Assembly (NCBI RefSeq): GCF_000332175.1
Contig: NZ_KB235910.1
Coordinates: 559,278-623,277 of the forward strand
DNA length: 64,000 nt
Source of the DNA: Pseudanabaena sp. PCC 6802
Lineage (GTDB): Bacteria > Cyanobacteriota > Cyanobacteriia > Pseudanabaenales > Pseudanabaenaceae
Direction of reading: 5' to 3'
Shown here piece after piece: positions 5,961 through 62,852 of this stretch. The notes beneath the pieces were generated by a model that ran no database searches, was not told where the DNA came from, and saw only the letters and a list, made by a program, of their open reading frames with translations. The first letter of the stretch is position 1. Each line of letters starts with the position of its first letter. The position numbers and the translations under genes were made by a program.

Positions 5961-7091
5961 ATGGCAATTATTTCTTCTCACAAAAGCAATAGTAGTAAAG
6001 ATGACTCCGAGCGGGGTATCGATCGCAAAGTTAACCGGAGCGATCGCAGCGCTCTGGGAACCGAGCTACTGCAAAGCGCTGCCAATCAAGAGGAGAAAAT
6101 TGCCGAAGCAAGCCCCACATCGATTGAGACTAACATTCGCCCCCAAAGCCTTAGCGATTACATCGGGCAAAAAGATCTCAAAGAATTGCTCCAAATTGCG
6201 ATCGCCGCCGCCAGATCGCGTCAGTCCGCCCTGGATCACGTGCTGTTTTACGGCTCGGCGGGCTTAGGTAAAACTTCGCTAGCGCTGATTATGGCAGCAG
6301 AAATGGGCGTGCAGTGCAAAATTACATCCGCCCCGGCGCTAGAACGCCCGCGCGATGTGGCAGGGTTACTAGTAAGTTTGCAACCCGGCGATATTTTATT
6401 CATTGACGAAATTCATCGCCTGCCCCACGTCACTGAGGAAATTCTTTACCCCGCCATGGAGGACTACCGCCTCGACATCACGATTGGTAAAGGGCAAGCA
6501 GCACGGATCCGCAGCGTGCAGTTGCAAAGGTTTACCCTGGTTGGAGCCACCACCAGAATTGGAGCATTATCCTCGCCCCTGCGCGATCGCTTTGGGTTCG
6601 TGCAGCACCTCCGCTTTTACGAGGTGGACGAACTGGCCGCGATTGTAGAGCGCAGTGCCAAAATTCTCGGCACGCCCCTCGATGAGGCTGGCGCGCTCGC
6701 GCTCGCCACCCGCGCTCGCGGTACGCCGCGCATCGCCAACCGCCTCCTGCGGCGGGTGCGCGACTACGCCGAGGTGAAGGCTAATGGCGCAATTACGGGG
6801 GCGATCGCCGAAGCTGCCCTAGAGCTATTTAATGTCGATCCGCGCGGTCTGGACTGGATCGATCGCAAGTTGTTGACCGTGATGATTGAAAATTTTAACG
6901 GCGGCCCCGTCGGCTTGGAAACGATGGCAGCAGCAACGGGTGAAGATACGCAAACCATAGAAGAAGTTTACGAACCATACCTGTTGCAAATTGGCTACCT
7001 CAACCGTACCCCAAGGGGGCGCGTTGCCACCGCTGCAGCCTGGCGGCACCTGGGCTACCCTTCGCAAACAGAATTTAAGTTACAGCCGTAG
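5961..7091 (+). CDS. ruvB: Holliday junction branch migration helicase RuvB
   Basis: Hexameric AAA+ motor that drives branch migration of Holliday junctions together with RuvA. 376 residues: a ~55-residue poorly conserved N-terminal extension, then the AAA+ core with Walker A (GSAGLGKTS, residues 98-106), Walker B (LFIDEIHR, about 147-153), sensor 1 (GATTR), the arginine-finger region (SSPLRDRFG) and the C-terminal winged helix ending RGRVAT. Such N-terminal extensions occur in other cyanobacterial RuvB proteins. ATG at 5961 is chosen because nothing upstream is in frame. ruvA and ruvC are not adjacent; another Holliday junction enzyme, ruvX, lies elsewhere in the window. Confidence 0.96.
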
Positions 7092-7182
7092 ACAACAAGC
7101 TTAGGATGAGGTGCAGCAAGGATATAACCCTATCCGAGCGATCGACTTCAACACCCCTGTACTCACAGACTTGACAAAAACG

Positions 7183-7214
7183 TATAGCCGTATGCAGATC
7201 TGCATACGGCTATA
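7183..7214. repeat. Perfect 32-bp palindrome (paired MITE ends)
   Basis: A perfect palindrome beginning TATAGCCGTATGCAGA, centred between 7198 and 7199, with no spacer. Its arm equals the terminal inverted repeat of the MITE-like elements at 11489, 18392 and 52874. It therefore looks like two element ends joined back to back, with the interior lost. It lies between ruvB and tRNA-fMet and could also act as a terminator hairpin. Confidence 0.75.
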
Positions 7215-7399: not shown

Positions 7400-7512
7400 A
7401 AATTTTGTTAGGAGGAGGTGCGGGGGATGCGGCAGTGGTTCTAAAGGAAGCCCCCCAAGACTGCCCTGCCTCCCCTGCGTGGGGCGCAGCCCCCACACCC
7501 ACCTTAAACCAG
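7400..7512. repeat. GC-rich palindromic element, MITE-like family (variant)
   Basis: About 110 bp holding the hairpin CGTGGGGCGCAGCCCCCACA and the block GCGGCAGTGGTTCTA, also present in the element at 34054. It shares the fold of the other elements in the window, but its outer ends are not clear; a 9-bp inverted repeat (AACAAAATT) overlaps its left edge at 7384-7410. Confidence 0.5.
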
Positions 7513-11488: not shown

Positions 11489-11589
11489 TATAGCCGTAGA
11501 CAGATCTGTTAGGACAGGGGGTGTGGGGGCTGCGCCCCCACGCAGAGGTTCCACCCCTGCACCCTGTCCTAAGCCTATTGGCAGCTATA
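11489..11589. mobile_element. MITE-like palindromic element, copy A
   Basis: 101 bp bounded by TATAGCC at the left and GCTATA at the right. Inside are a closing stem (GGACAGGG/CCCTGTCC), hairpin 1 (GTGGGGGCTGCGCCCCCAC) and hairpin 2 (GCAGAGGTTCCACCCCTGC). Over 80% identical by eye to the copies at 18392 and 52874. Non-coding. Confidence 0.75.
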
Positions 11590-13863: not shown

Positions 13864-15796
13864 ATCGGGTCGAGAAGGGTGTTTAGCCCTTCCCTCCCAC
13901 ACCACCCGGCATGCGGGTCCGCACCGGGCGGTTCATAATCGCCGCGCAAACAAACCTCAAGAAAATCAGGCATAACCCTGGACTTTCATCCAAAGTTCTC
14001 GCACTGAAAGCCAACCCTGTAACTGTAACCACTGATTCGTCATTCCCGTATGGGTTGCCAGAGTCTTTGACAAACGCCAATAGCCTTTGCGACTAATGCC
14101 GGTCAAAATCGCCTGTCGTTTACTAGTGCCTAGAGCCAGCAGATGTCGGATACGAGTGCGAGGTCTGCGCCACTGTTGACCGTAACACATACGAATTCGT
14201 CGCCGCAACCAACCATCCAACTGCTCAATTGGACTGTAATGCTGGGAAATGCCGTAGTAGTTCATCCAACCTCGTAAGTATCGGTTCAACCGTTCCATGC
14301 GGTACTCCATTGAAACACCCCAACTACGTGACGTTAAGCCCCGCAGTCGATGTATGAAATCCCGATAGGCTTGGTCTGACCACCAAATCCGAATTCCTCG
14401 GAACGTAAATCCCAGAAATTCTAATTTGTCAGTCCTGACCACACGACTTTTCTGCCGATTTACTTTGAGCTTCAGCTTTTGGCTCAGGTATCGGCTGATA
14501 TTAGCCAACACCCTCTGCCCTGCCCGTCTACTTTTGACCAGAATTACCAAGTCATCCATATAGCGAGCAAAGCGATGTCCTCTTGCCTCTAACTCTTTGT
14601 CGAGGTCATCCAACAAGATGTTGGCGAGCAACGGTGACAGTGGCGACCCTTGTGGAGTGCCCCAATCCGTTGCCGCGAAAGTGTGACCGACCATAACTCC
14701 CGCTCGCAGATACCGTCCGATTAAACCCAGAAGTACCTTATCGGTTACTTTCCGAGCAATGCGGGACATCAGCATGTCGTGGTCTACATTGTCAAAGAAT
14801 TTCTCCAAATCAATGTCTACCGCAACTTGATACCCTGCTTTGATGGCGGACTTTACCTGCCGAATTGCTCCGTGGGCAGATCGCTTGGGTCGACTGCCAT
14901 AGCTTGAGTCCGAAAATCCTGGCTCAAACATTGGCGATAACACTTGTAGAATGGCTTGCTGGATTACCCGGTCTATGACACAAGGTATTCCTAGCTTTCT
15001 CTCGCCGCCTCTTGGCTTTGGTATTACTACCTGTCGCACTGGCTGCGGTTGATACGTACCATCCTTCAGGGAAGCGCGAATCTCTGTCCAATGCTCCCTT
15101 GCATAGTCGAGGAAATCTCCTATAGTCATACCGTCGATTCCGGCTGCTCCTTGGTTCGATTTCACCCTTCCCCATGCCTGTTGCACATTGTTGCGCTCTA
15201 ATATTCGCGCCATCAGGTTGTCTAAGGCTGGCTTTATGTCAGCACGCCATCCGTCATCTCCCCCGGTCGGGTTCATCGATGCGTCTGAGTTGTTCATTGC
15301 TCCTCCTTATGGCAATTATGTTCTGTCCTTCGTCCTGGATTGGACTACTATGACTTCTGCTGACTTCTGCAAGGCTTGACACCAAGAGTTCCCTCTTAGT
15401 GGGCTGTCCTTTTTGCTTTAGGGTTCTGTGGCTTCCTAACCGTTTCCGGCTCTTACCTCATTCAGACTCCCTTTACTCTTAGAACCGCAACCTTACAGAC
15501 CTCCCCAGATAAGAACGTGAACTGTCCCGCCGCAACCGTGTCATTTACTGTGCCCCTTGAACCAGAGGTTTTGTTGTGTTGTGCCAACTCACCCAGGGGT
15601 CTCAGCCTTCTATGACATTTCTGTTCGTCGGCTCGTCGGTTTGCTATCCGGCTTCCTTCAAACACTTCCTCGCGAAAGCATTCTTGCCTTAAGCTAGTAG
15701 TGGTCGTCACTCGGATCTGTAAATTGATCATTTGGACGCTGGTTCTCCTACAGGGGACTTTCACCCCATTAGTTCACGCCCATGCTGGGCGTACAC
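13864..15796 (-). mobile_element. Group II intron
   Basis: Retroelement of ~1.93 kb read on the minus strand. The predicted 5' end is GTGTACGCCCAGC at 15796, near the GUGYG consensus. Near the 3' end, 13901-13934 folds as domain V (GAACCGCCCGG... with its complement), and the intron ends in CCCGAT at 13864. The maturase gene occupies domain IV. The 5' splice site lies 76 bp beyond the gshA stop codon, so no gene is interrupted. Ends are inferred from consensus and not proven. Confidence 0.85.
13966..15297 (-). CDS. ltrA: Group II intron reverse transcriptase/maturase
   Basis: 443 residues. Copies the intron RNA into DNA and assists splicing. RT motifs are clear: the N-terminal RNA-binding start (GIDGMTIGDF), VVIPKPRGGERKLGIP, SYGSRPKRSAHGA, the catalytic RYMDDLVIL, and KLEFLGFTFRG. 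The maturase (X) domain follows with YLRGWMNYYGIS. The protein stops after X; there is no HNH endonuclease domain, so it should integrate by the endonuclease-independent route. The frame is intact, so the intron may be active. A good Shine-Dalgarno (AAGGAGG) precedes the start. Confidence 0.95.
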   Translation of the reverse strand: MNNSDASMNPTGGDDGWRADIKPALDNLMARILERNNVQQAWGRVKSNQGAAGIDGMTIGDFLDYAREHWTEIRASLKDGTYQPQPVRQVVIPKPRGGERKLGIPCVIDRVIQQAILQVLSPMFEPGFSDSSYGSRPKRSAHGAIRQVKSAIKAGYQVAVDIDLEKFFDNVDHDMLMSRIARKVTDKVLLGLIGRYLRAGVMVGHTFAATDWGTPQGSPLSPLLANILLDDLDKELEARGHRFARYMDDLVILVKSRRAGQRVLANISRYLSQKLKLKVNRQKSRVVRTDKLEFLGFTFRGIRIWWSDQAYRDFIHRLRGLTSRSWGVSMEYRMERLNRYLRGWMNYYGISQHYSPIEQLDGWLRRRIRMCYGQQWRRPRTRIRHLLALGTSKRQAILTGISRKGYWRLSKTLATHTGMTNQWLQLQGWLSVRELWMKVQGYA

Positions 15797-17052: not shown

Positions 17053-17140
17053 TCAAATCCTGGTTTGTTAACCCCTTTTCTTCGAGTCTGCGCGCGCAGA
17101 CTTTGTTTGTGTAGCCGAGACTTCTAGTCGCCAGGCAATA
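17053..17140 (+). repeat. Dispersed repeat, uninterrupted copy
   Basis: Begins CAAATCCTGGTTTGTTA and continues through a GC-rich hairpin (AGTCTGCGCGCGCAGACT) to TTTGTTTGTGTAGCCG and CGCCAGGC. The same unit occurs at 18377, where it is split by a MITE-like element, and its core also occurs at 9083. This copy is the empty-site reference for that insertion. Confidence 0.75.
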
Positions 17141-18376: not shown

Positions 18377-18565
18377 CAAATCCTGGTTTGTTATAGCCGT
18401 ATGCAGATTCTGTTAGGACAGGGGGAGTGGGGGCACAGCCCCCACGCAGGGGTGTAACCCCTGCACCCCGTCCTAAGCCTGTTGACTACAGCTATAACTC
18501 CTTTTCTTAGAGTCCGCGCAGTCAGACTTTGTTTGTGTAGCCGCGACTTCCAGTCGCCAGACAAA
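18377..18565 (+). repeat. Dispersed repeat split by a MITE-like element
   Basis: The left part (18377-18393) and right part (18495-18565) together match the uninterrupted repeat at 17053-17140. Between them sits the element at 18394-18494. Comparison shows the insertion duplicated the dinucleotide TA. Confidence 0.75.
18392..18496. mobile_element. MITE-like palindromic element, copy B, with TA target duplication
   Basis: Element 18394-18494 (101 bp) starting TAGCCGTATGCAG and ending CTACAGCTA, flanked by TA at 18392-18393 and 18495-18496. The interior has hairpin 1 (GTGGGGGCACAGCCCCCAC), hairpin 2 (GCAGGGGTGTAACCCCTGC) and a closing stem. The TA duplication is the hallmark of IS630/Tc1/mariner-type transposition. 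Non-coding. Confidence 0.8.
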
Positions 18566-21494: not shown

Positions 21495-22126
21495 GGAATG
21501 CATCCATAAAATGAGAGAGTAAGTAAACAAGTTTAAAGGTATATTTCAAACAATTTAGTTCACATTGAGAAGACTTATGGATCTAGCATGGGTAAAGTTC
21601 ACGTGGTATAAACGCTTAGAATCTTCGACTCTCAAGACATCGGGGAAAGTTATTGCCTTGGCAATAAAATAGAATGCAATCTATAGCGCAGCATAAATAA
21701 TAGATGGATGCTTAAAGTAACTCCTAATGTGGGCAGGCAATCTCTGCAATTTCTGCAGTTGAGATAGCACTCTATGTTTTAATTGACTCAGGTTTCGCGT
21801 CAAAGGTTTGGCATGAACTCGCTGTTTAACATCACCATTGAGGTACTCTACTGGATTCAACTGCGGTGAATAGGAAGGTAAATAAAATAACTCGATCTCC
21901 TGGGAGTGCTGCTCTAACCATTGCTGGACGGGGCGCTCTCGGTGGACGGGATGACGATCCACGATCCAAAACAGTTTGGCTGAGCGCTTGTCAATCAACC
22001 GTTGCAGAAATTCAATAAATACTGGAGCCGTCAAGGTACAGGTGTAAAGCATAAATTGAATCGTACCTTGATGGCTGATGCTAGCAATGAAATTCAACCT
22101 TGTCCGTTCGCGTTTACTGGGACGAA

Positions 22127-23476: not shown

Positions 23477-23977
23477 GGGACGAATTTCAGGCGGATGTCC
23501 CTTGGGGGCGTAGCCTCGCCCCCCATACTCATCAGAACTGAGTCCCGATTCATCTCCCCACTCGATGTCGGCACCTTCTGCTTGCGCTTGGCGCTCAATC
23601 GCGGGATATTCTTCCTGTAACCAGCGTTTCACGGCGGCGGGGTCTTGCTCGTAAGCACGTTCGATGGGCTTCTGAGGGCTGTAGCCCCATCGTTGGAGAT
23701 ATTCCCCCACTGTGCGTATCGGCATCTCCACTCCTAATTCTTGCTCGATTAGTGTTTGCACGGCTCGTCTAGTCCACAAGGCGCTCTCGATCTGGTAATC
23801 CTCTGGACTATGCCCCTGCAGCATCGCCGCAATGGTTGCTTCCTCTGCCGCACTTAAAGTTCGCCCTTCCCCCACCTCTCGTCCTCGTCTCTGCTGAAAC
23901 AGGGCTGCTTCTCCATAATCTTGATACGCCCACCACCACTCGCTAATCGTGTTACGATGAATCCCCAGGTACTCACT

Positions 23978-24924
23978 AGACCTCTTGCAGATTAGGTTGA
24001 GGTTGAGTTGCCAAAGAACCCCAAGATAGGAAAATATCAGGACATAGCAATAACGAAAAAGCGTCCTGATGATGAACTATATAATAGCGCAAACCCTACC
24101 TGCTGCACACTTTAAGCGTCGATTTGGTATCGAGACTAATACGTTCAAAGCAATTGTGAAAGTGCTTAAACCAGAGTGGCGAGCAACGCCAACACCTGGA
24201 GCCAAGCCTAAACTCGGACTAGAAGACCGCATATTGGTTGCCTTCGAGTATTGGCGGGAATATCGCACCTACTTTCACATCGCCACTAGTTGGGGCATCA
24301 GCGAGTCTACAGTTTGTCGAATAGTGCATTGGGTAGAGGAGACTTTAATCCGCTCACGTCGCTTTCGACTACCTGGGAAGCGCCAGTTGGTGCGGGGCTT
24401 TGGGATACCTACAGTCGCGACGTTGATGTGACTGAAACTCGCATTGAGCGTCCTAAGCGGCACCAACGTGCCTTTTATAGCGGCAAACAGAAAGGGCACA
24501 CGCTCAAATGTCAACTCATAATTGACGCTCTTACTGGGCAGATTATCTGTACGTTTTTCGGCAAGGGGCGACGGCATGATTTCAAGCTGTTCAAAGCTTC
24601 TGGCATCCATTTCCATCCTCAAACCGAGAGTTTGCAGGACAAGGGTTATCAAGGCATCCAGAAACTGCATCTCTACTGCCGCTTACCCCACAAGAAACCG
24701 AAAGGTGGTCAGCTTACGCCTGAGCAGAAAGCGTTCAACCGCCAACTTGCGCGCCAACGGGTTGGCATTGAGCATGTTAATCGCCGCTTGAAGATCTTCC
24801 GCATCTTATCTGGACGCTATCGCAATCGTCGTCACCGCTTTGGTTTGCGTTGCAATCTAATTGCTGGTCTCTACAATTTTGAACGCTCTCAAGGCTCCTC
24901 AGTTGGCTAATTTGCAAGAGGTCT
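23978..24924 (+). mobile_element. IS5-family insertion sequence (DDE_Tnp_4 type)
   Basis: 947 bp with terminal inverted repeats AGACCTCTTGCAGATTAG on the left and AGACCTCTTGCAAATTAG reading inward on the right (one mismatch). Flanked by a 3-bp duplication ACT (23975-23977 and 24925-24927). Inserted near the 5' end of the IS630 transposase gene. Confidence 0.9.
24069..24910 (+). pseudogene. IS5-family transposase in two frames
   Basis: The first frame (24069-24431, 120 residues) carries the N-terminal helical region and the helix-turn-helix (SWGISESTVCRIVHWVEE). The second (usable from ~24415 to 24910) carries the catalytic part: DVTETRIERPKRHQ with the first Asp, YSGKQKGHTLKCQ, HDFKLFK, DKGYQGI and RVGIEHVNRRLKIFRIL. 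The catalytic frame is -1 relative to the first. Some IS5 relatives use programmed frameshifting, but I find no convincing slippery heptamer before the TGA at 24429, so a mutation is equally likely. Confidence 0.8.
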
Positions 24925-26298
24925 ACTGATATCACATACTCGTTTCCCTTGCTCTCGCAGTCGGATCGCTTGCTGACGAAGGTAATTTTGCGTCTCTATC
25001 GATAGGTGTCGGCCATCGGGTTTATCCATGTCAAACCTCCTTGTGCCTTTACTTCTATTATCCTATGCTTTCTTTTTCATTGCCGAAGCAATATAGCAAT
25101 TGTTGGGCCGAATGAAGCAGGGAAGAGTTCAATCCTCAAAGCTCTAGAACATCTAAACCATAACGATTCTTTTTCGCAAAGTGATTTAACTCGTGGTAAA
25201 GAGATCCAAGAAAATGATGTAGTAATTGAAGCCTGCTTTCTTCTTGAAGATTGCGATCGTGAAGTACTTTCAGGTTTATATGAAGGTGCCAACATTAGGC
25301 AATTTAGGGTTCGCAAGTTGTCTAATGGGCATAGAGAATATGACACTATACCCTCAATACAGCGAGATCCCTCACATCGACATCATTTATTGAGTTGTTT
25401 GAAAACAGCTTTAGATAGCACAGAACTCAGCGGGCTAGATATTAACAATAATGAAGAATTCCTTGCAGAGGAAGTAGAAAAGCTGATTTATGAATTAGAA
25501 AATACTGATAAAGATCTTGATGGGAATACATTGCAGAAATTAAATGAATTGAAATCTGCTCTTACCTTAGAAAATGAGGAAAAAGGATCGCAAATTCTTA
25601 ATGACTTATGTTCTGCTATAGATTCTTTAATTGCTAGTGAACAGGACATAGAACCAAATAAAAGGGCACAGGAAATGTTAATTTCGCGAGTTCCCAAAAT
25701 ACTGCTTTTTAGCGAGGATCAGCGTAAATTAGAGTCTACATATAATTTGTCTCACTCTGATTTTTCCCTATCCCCTGCACTCCAAAACCTGACAAATTTA
25801 GCAAATTTAGATTTAGCCAACCTTAAAAGTGCTATTTCCAAAAATGACCAAGCTAGGATTGGAACTATTTTAAATAAAGCAAACGATCAAATAACTAGAG
25901 TTGTTCAAGGCAAGTGGTCACAGTCAGGAGTTAAAGTCACTTTATCAATCAGTAACAATTATACATTAAATGTTCTTATTGAAGATGAGCGAAGAGACTG
26001 TACTAACCTGTACGATCGCAGTGATGGGTTACGCCAATTTGTAGCATTAATAAACTTCCTCGAAGCAGAACATGCCGATCAAAAACCAATCTTGTTAATT
26101 GATGAGGCAGAAACTCACCTGCACTATGATGCACAAGCAGATTTAATGAATATGTTTGCGACGCAACAACTAGCATCAAAAATCATATACACAACGCATT
26201 CGGCAGGCTGTTTACCTGAAGATTGAAGTGGCCCCAATCGCCTGAACAACTTTGAGGGATCTCTAAGCTCTGAGAAATTGAGATCTCTAATTTCCTCA

Positions 26299-34053: not shown

Positions 34054-34209
34054 ATAGCGGTTTTCACTTGAGAACGGGTTTTATTTTTGGGGTGAAGGGG
34101 TGGAACACGGCAGTGGCTCTAGCGGGGAACCCCCAAGACCGCCCTGCCTCCCCTTCTTGGGGGCAACGCCCCCAAACCCCCTTCTCGTTTTCATCTGAAA
34201 ACCGCTATA
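34054..34209. mobile_element. MITE-like palindromic element, second sequence type, long form
   Basis: 156 bp bounded by TATAGCGGTTTTCA and its inverted copy TGAAAACCGCTATA. The interior has hairpin TTGGGGGCAACGCCCCCAA and a longer second hairpin with the block CGGCAGTGGCTCTA shared with 7400-7512. It lies in opposite orientation to the related element at 62740. Confidence 0.75.
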
Positions 34210-52873: not shown

Positions 52874-52981
52874 TATAGCCGTAGACAGATCTGTTAGGAC
52901 AGGGGGTGTGGGGGCTGCGCCCCCACGCAGGGGTGGAACCCCTGCACCCCGCCCGTCCTAAGCCTATTGGCTATAGCTATA
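52874..52981. mobile_element. MITE-like palindromic element, copy C
   Basis: 108 bp bounded by TATAGCC and AGCTATA. Hairpin 1 (GTGGGGGCTGCGCCCCCAC) and hairpin 2 (GCAGGGGTGGAACCCCTGC) are perfect. The left half is nearly identical to copy A at 11489; the right side has a 4-bp insertion in the closing stem. Non-coding, between glcE and ruvX. Confidence 0.75.
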
Positions 52982-62739: not shown

Positions 62740-62852
62740 TATAGCGGTTTTCAGATGAAAACGAGAAGGGGGTTTGGGGGCAACGCCCCCAAGAAGGGGT
62801 TCTACCCCTTCACCCCATCAATAAAACCCGTTCTCAATTGCAAAGCGCTATA
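62740..62852. mobile_element. MITE-like palindromic element, second sequence type, short form
   Basis: 113 bp bounded by TATAGCGGTTTTCA and GCGCTATA. Hairpin 1 TTGGGGGCAACGCCCCCAA and hairpin 2 GAAGGGGTTCTACCCCTTC are perfect. Its left 30 bp match, in reverse orientation, the right end of the element at 34054. Confidence 0.75.

Follow-up and report, generated by a model that had tools for sequence, protein, structure and literature searches.

The 101-bp insert in the dispersed repeat at 18377-18565 is very probably a non-autonomous MITE of the IS630/Tc1/mariner group, moved by a transposase of a clade (clade A) whose source is gone from the lineage or was transient in it. The insert belongs to a high-copy MITE family (family A) that has no resident partner transposase, beside a sister family (family B) whose partner this genome still contains. 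A MITE that had no known origin thereby gains an identified partner clade. The window, that is, the whole stretch of 64,000 nucleotides analysed, corresponds to C1:559278-623277 of a 5.62-Mb genome in 6 contigs, and the assembly was rated 99.7% complete. Positions without a contig prefix are those of the window. Copy counts made at the sequence level refer to 2.05 Mb taken as stretches, which is the 36% of the genome read base by base.

The interrupted repeat and its single-TA paralogues

The insert reads TAGCCGTATGC...GACTACAGCTA and lies between two TA dinucleotides (Table 1). After removal of the insert and one TA, the filled repeat was aligned with the uninterrupted copy upstream, giving 77 identical positions in 88 alignment columns; the net length difference between the two was 103 bp. 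The 101-bp insertion in the host repeat is confirmed as a real observation, as had been described in an earlier note on this DNA (the repeat at 17053-17140 as the empty site, and the same repeat at 18377-18565 with a 101-bp insert and a doubled TA); only the coordinate 17053 is off by one base. The uninterrupted copy is a paralogue located 1.4 kb from the filled repeat and is not the pre-insertion site itself. A joined-flank search of the 2.05 Mb showed 22 uninterrupted paralogues spanning the junction, 15 of which had a single TA. Other family A copies were found at another TA of the same host repeat (C5:737551, C5:3392601 and C1:795496), indicating that this repeat was struck more than once. 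The element itself starts and ends with TA, and a doubled TA is inseparable by sequence from an insertion of 103 bp between T and A with no duplication; the IS630 affiliation of the element settles the matter in favor of TA duplication. The host repeat forms a dispersed family in its own right, with a palindrome that varies, and in the same-family genomes G011 and G012 the stretches related to it were found solely as MITE-core matches.

The same junction pattern was observed for other copies. For seven independent MITE insertions, a paralogue of 85-100% identity served as the empty site and contained exactly one TA, as determined by joining the flanks and requiring at least 85% identity in an ungapped alignment. 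Three of them belong to family A (C1:298379, C1:577671, which is the 18394-18494 element, and C5:737551) and four to family B (C2:29872, C1:440315, C5:590262 and C1:297101). Judged from such comparisons between sites, with paralogues serving as the empty sites, the elements are mobile. The earlier note had presented the interrupted repeat as direct proof of movement; the movement holds, whereas the word direct does not, as the evidence comes from paralogues and not from one site before and after insertion.

Table 1. Positions of the MITEs, target sites, host repeats and palindromes
Feature	Position	Strand	Remarks
Family A MITE, 101 bp, reported element	18394..18494	+	Sequence; profile match, model positions 1-100 of 100, E 8e-25
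Left TA of target duplication	18392..18393	.	Sequence
Right TA of target duplication	18495..18496	.	Sequence
Dispersed host repeat interrupted by MITE	18377..18565	+	Sequence; 39 matches in 2.05 Mb
Uninterrupted host-repeat paralogue	17054..17138	+	Sequence; one TA at junction
Family A MITE	11491..11587	+	Right end 3 nt shorter; TA both sides
Family A MITE	52876..52979	+	TA both sides
Degenerate family A copy	7085..7175	-	
Family B MITE, long form	34055..34207	-	Internal 43-nt module; TA both sides
Family B MITE, short form	62742..62850	+	TA both sides
Degenerate family B-type copy	7400..7500	-	
Empty site of family B insertion C2:29872-29981	15450..15571	+	C1:574727-574848; single TA, 100% identity over 122 bp
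Perfect 28-bp palindrome made of two left ends of family A	7185..7212	.	TA both sides; sole genome copy
A/B hybrid MITEs	C1:33248, C1:633344, C5:378376, C5:147192, C5:473579		
Exact 26-bp palindromes (L321-L325)	C1:261916, C5:97622, C5:230616, C5:1732878, C5:4474905		Unrelated sites

Profile searches of the 2.05 Mb yielded 104 unique full-length copies of family A, 77 with TA on both sides, and 102 of family B, 93 with TA on both sides. The profiles were seeded from TATAGC-ended copies, TA was not demanded of the matches, and nhmmer matches to these palindromic elements on both strands were counted once. TA is absent from at least one side in 27 of the 104 full-length copies of family A, which are presumably decayed. 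Across the genome, TATAGCCGTA was counted 119 times as opposed to 37 times for the reversed control, which, together with the 104 full-length copies, shows that the recurrence of family A is beyond chance. The family A consensus reads TAGCCGTAGACAGATCTGTTAGGACAGGGGG...GTCCTAAGCCTGTTGGCTATAGCTA. The median identity of the copies to the consensus was 94%, and current activity is therefore not implied. The family A element is short (101 bp), lacks coding capacity and is present in high copy number. It carries terminal inverted repeats, TAGCCGTA on the left and TAGCTGTA or TAGCTATA on the right, which are imperfect past 8 nt. Its two ends, TATAGC CGTAGACAGATCTG TTAGGAC and TATAGC TATAGCCAACAGGC TTAGGAC, share the layout TATAGC-N14-TTAGGAC.

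IS630 partners of the two families

Family B provided a positive control, with a partner IS630 element that has identical ends in the same genome. Among the 16 IS630-type (DDE_3) matches in the genome, the element L032 (C5:1425683) shows TATAGCGGTTTTCAGATG at both boundaries, 1,018 bp apart. Its ends are identical to the left end of family B over 21 nt, and TAGCGGTTTTCAGATGAGAAC, present at both of them, equals the family B consensus. The L032 transposase is encoded by two overlapping frames meeting at a run of A, which would be joined by frameshifting. Both of its parts are assigned to IS630 by Pfam and NCBIfam; the scores for L032 and the clade-A partners were 114.7 and 136.3 bits with DDE_3 (PF13358) and 124.4 and 146.2 bits with the IS630 model (NF033545), all above the cut-off.

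For family A, IS630 elements with TATAGC-N14-TTAGGAC ends were observed among 20 genomes rich in related MITEs. These clade-A elements are ~955-965 bp long, with the transposase in two overlapping frames. A profile constructed from five transposases with such ends matched 180 of 388 genomes at E ≤ 1e-25; the related clade B also passes this threshold. One of two findings that, by the earlier note, would speak against its interpretation was a lack of IS630 elements with matching ends in related genomes; such elements exist, the layout being found in 25 of the 30 best clade-A loci, occurring twice (at both ends) in 13 of them. The controls gave 1 of 29 loci retrieved with the clade-B query, 1 of 19 chlI loci, 1 of the 16 resident IS630 loci (L034) and none in shuffles. 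In 40 of 48 pairs, TATAGC and TTAGGAC were separated by exactly 14 nt. No IS630 ending in precisely TAGCCGTAGACAGATCTG was encountered; what matches is the layout and the conserved positions rather than every letter. Clades A and B were apart in a tree of the DDE domain, and the catalytic D, D, E/D residues, in the motifs DE, DN and IE, were invariant in the alignment of the five clade-A proteins. Clade-A members with these ends were also present in genomes of the taxonomic family to which the host belongs (G027, G021 and G017). Relatives considered for orthologous empty sites were distant, with protein identities of just 46-59% at the neighboring gene.

A whole-genome profile search did not find the clade-A transposase in this genome: the top match was L032 with 103.6 bits, as opposed to more than 300 bits for clade members, which indicates that clade A is missing from the assembly. 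A resident partner is not a requirement for a MITE. The absence agrees with the earlier proposal that the mobilizer lies elsewhere. The IS630 in the window was likewise correctly described as having different ends (TATTGCCTTGGCAAT), and on these ends it was rejected as a mobilizer of family A, as were 11 further relatives of it, complete or partial. The L046 IS630 was rejected on its ends as well (TACCCCCTTTAAGA); one or other of these two sequences terminates the resident IS630 elements apart from L032. Single-end matches (left-only or right-only) in other genomes were considered as autonomous elements, and all proved to be MITEs or fragments.

Further mobile DNA was noted around these loci. 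The IS630 in the window lies in three pieces (~21646-22126, 23477-23977 and 24919-25093). The pieces are separated by a Mutator-type (IS256-like) element of 1.35 kb, of which copies with 99.9% identity exist elsewhere, and by a ~0.94-kb stretch encoding HTH_Tnp_4 / DDE_Tnp_4 transposase parts. Repeats of ~86-110 bp with dozens of copies are located beside IS630 loci (L046, 1-86 and 2508-2753; L032 flank, 1-106). Some of them overlap family B MITEs, and others may represent further MITE families.

With family A ends matching clade-A IS630 and family B ends matching a resident IS630, the earlier interpretation of the elements as MITEs moved by IS630 transposases is supported overall, with small corrections. 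One of these concerns the statement that TA duplication is specific to the IS630/Tc1/mariner group, which is not strictly so, because other IS families can also generate TA-type duplications. The assignment to IS630 follows from the shared ends rather than from the TA duplication. In the proposed course of events, a clade-A transposase would have bound both ends of the element in trans, excised it and joined it at a TA, and gap repair would have doubled the target TA, as for ISY100. The source of the transposase would later have been lost from the lineage, or it may have been a short-lived copy on a plasmid or phage. The core, with two strong tandem hairpins within a long stem, would be passenger DNA to which no function is assigned. 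We infer the trans-mobilization of family A, the loss of its source and the order of these events from the sequence comparisons.

The shared core and the origin of the element

The central hairpins are common to families A and B, and with RNA parameters the whole family A element folds into a single stem bearing two hairpins, at -61 kcal/mol. Longer forms were found in 15 of 90 family A pairs and 29 of 98 family B pairs, and are probably explained by an optional inner module of 43 nt. By eye, the inner module AGGCAGGGCGGTCTTGGGGGTTCCCCGCTAGAGCCACTGCCGTG is located at the same core position in both families (in the long form at 34055-34207 and in other long copies). Among 388 cyanobacterial genomes, 64 contained matches to the core, which for the most part had other ends. 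Five of ~197 paired elements were A/B hybrids with one end from each family, always a left end paired with a right end, the outcome expected of exchange within the core.

A 26-bp palindrome consisting of two family B ends, with TA on both sides, was found at nine sites, five exact and four with up to 2 mismatches, and its exact pattern was found in none of the 387 other cyanobacterial genomes searched. It could have arisen by deletion between the TGAAAAC repeats of two ends and then spread, or it could have formed repeatedly. In a frame-restoring comparison, two of the 26-bp palindromes lay near the 3' end of long open frames, too close to that end for the comparison to carry weight. Perhaps, though we offer this only tentatively, one hairpin core spreads among cyanobacteria by swapping ends, carried by MITEs that respond to different IS630 clades, with core exchange leading to still-mobile A/B hybrids and, in this genome, down to 26-bp bare-end elements. 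With the shared core, the hybrids and the 26-bp palindromes, it becomes possible to address what portions of a MITE its movement requires and whether selection acts on the core.

The hybrids also bear on the origin of family A, which might have been cross-mobilized by the resident clade-B element L032 instead of by a lost clade-A element. L032 is the sole resident IS630 with ends starting with TATAGC, the outermost bases that both share, and four of the five hybrids have intact TATA ends on both sides. However, the family A ends are unlike those of L032 past TATAGC, and the TTAGGAC box is a clade-A-specific feature. The hybrids are, furthermore, few and always composed of one left and one right end, which fits exchange in the shared core, and we consider cross-mobilization unlikely. 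A mover from another TA-duplicating DDE family, or a route through replication or RNA, as has been proposed for cyanobacterial repeats of very small size, could be suspected because TA-type duplication is not exclusive to IS630 and the 26-bp palindromes are shorter than usual MITEs. Such a mover is extremely improbable given that the ends of both families match IS630 elements.

The order of events at the host repeat could also be reversed, with the repeat at 18377 representing the ancestral state and the element having been lost from the "empty" copies. Both filled and empty forms exist, and IS630/Tc1 elements can excise as well as insert. Tc1-type excision, however, mostly leaves extra bases behind, and an exact loss of 103 bp in many copies is unlikely. 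At the junction, the empty paralogues are far more common than the filled form, and the family A copies at other TA dinucleotides of the host repeat point to separate insertions, which makes an ancestral element highly unlikely. Insertion by a clade-A transposase is the reading we retain, and family A seems to be an ordinary kind of IS630-derived MITE that has outlived its mover gene.

Comparison with known systems

The element may already have been named. Small dispersed repeats (SDR) of Nostoc are 21-27 nt long and occur as nested insertions. The 26-bp palindromes resemble them in these two respects, a likeness of size and nesting rather than of compared sequences, but are made of IS630 ends.

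ISY100 of Synechocystis PCC 6803 inserts nearly always at TA, which is duplicated, and its cut-and-paste transposition has been shown biochemically (PMC2170065). L032 and the clade-A partners are similar to it in the TA target, the TA duplication, the inverted ends and the DDE transposase with an N-terminal helix-turn-helix (PMC2170065). In contrast, the partners differ from it in their end sequences and in their use of two overlapping frames, and the MITEs are gene-free. RUP of Streptococcus pneumoniae is a 107-bp repeat with ends like those of IS630-Spn1 (PMC3049150). By description, rather than by comparison of end sequences, it resembles the present MITEs in its length of ~100 bp, high copy number, IS630-like ends and folded palindromic core. 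The partner IS of RUP is common in pneumococcus, whereas that of family A is missing from this genome. Nezha, as far as it is described where cited in PMC3049150, is a cyanobacterial MITE with ISNpu3-like elements as its proposed mover, and by this description, not by sequence, it is also a cyanobacterial MITE whose ends link it to an IS. In Anabaena sp. 90, the type II MITEs lack a matching IS in the genome that carries them, and an autonomous route was suggested for them (PMC3542288). Family A is similarly a cyanobacterial MITE whose matching IS is missing from its own genome; however, it differs from the Anabaena elements in that other genomes proved to contain an IS630 clade that matches it.
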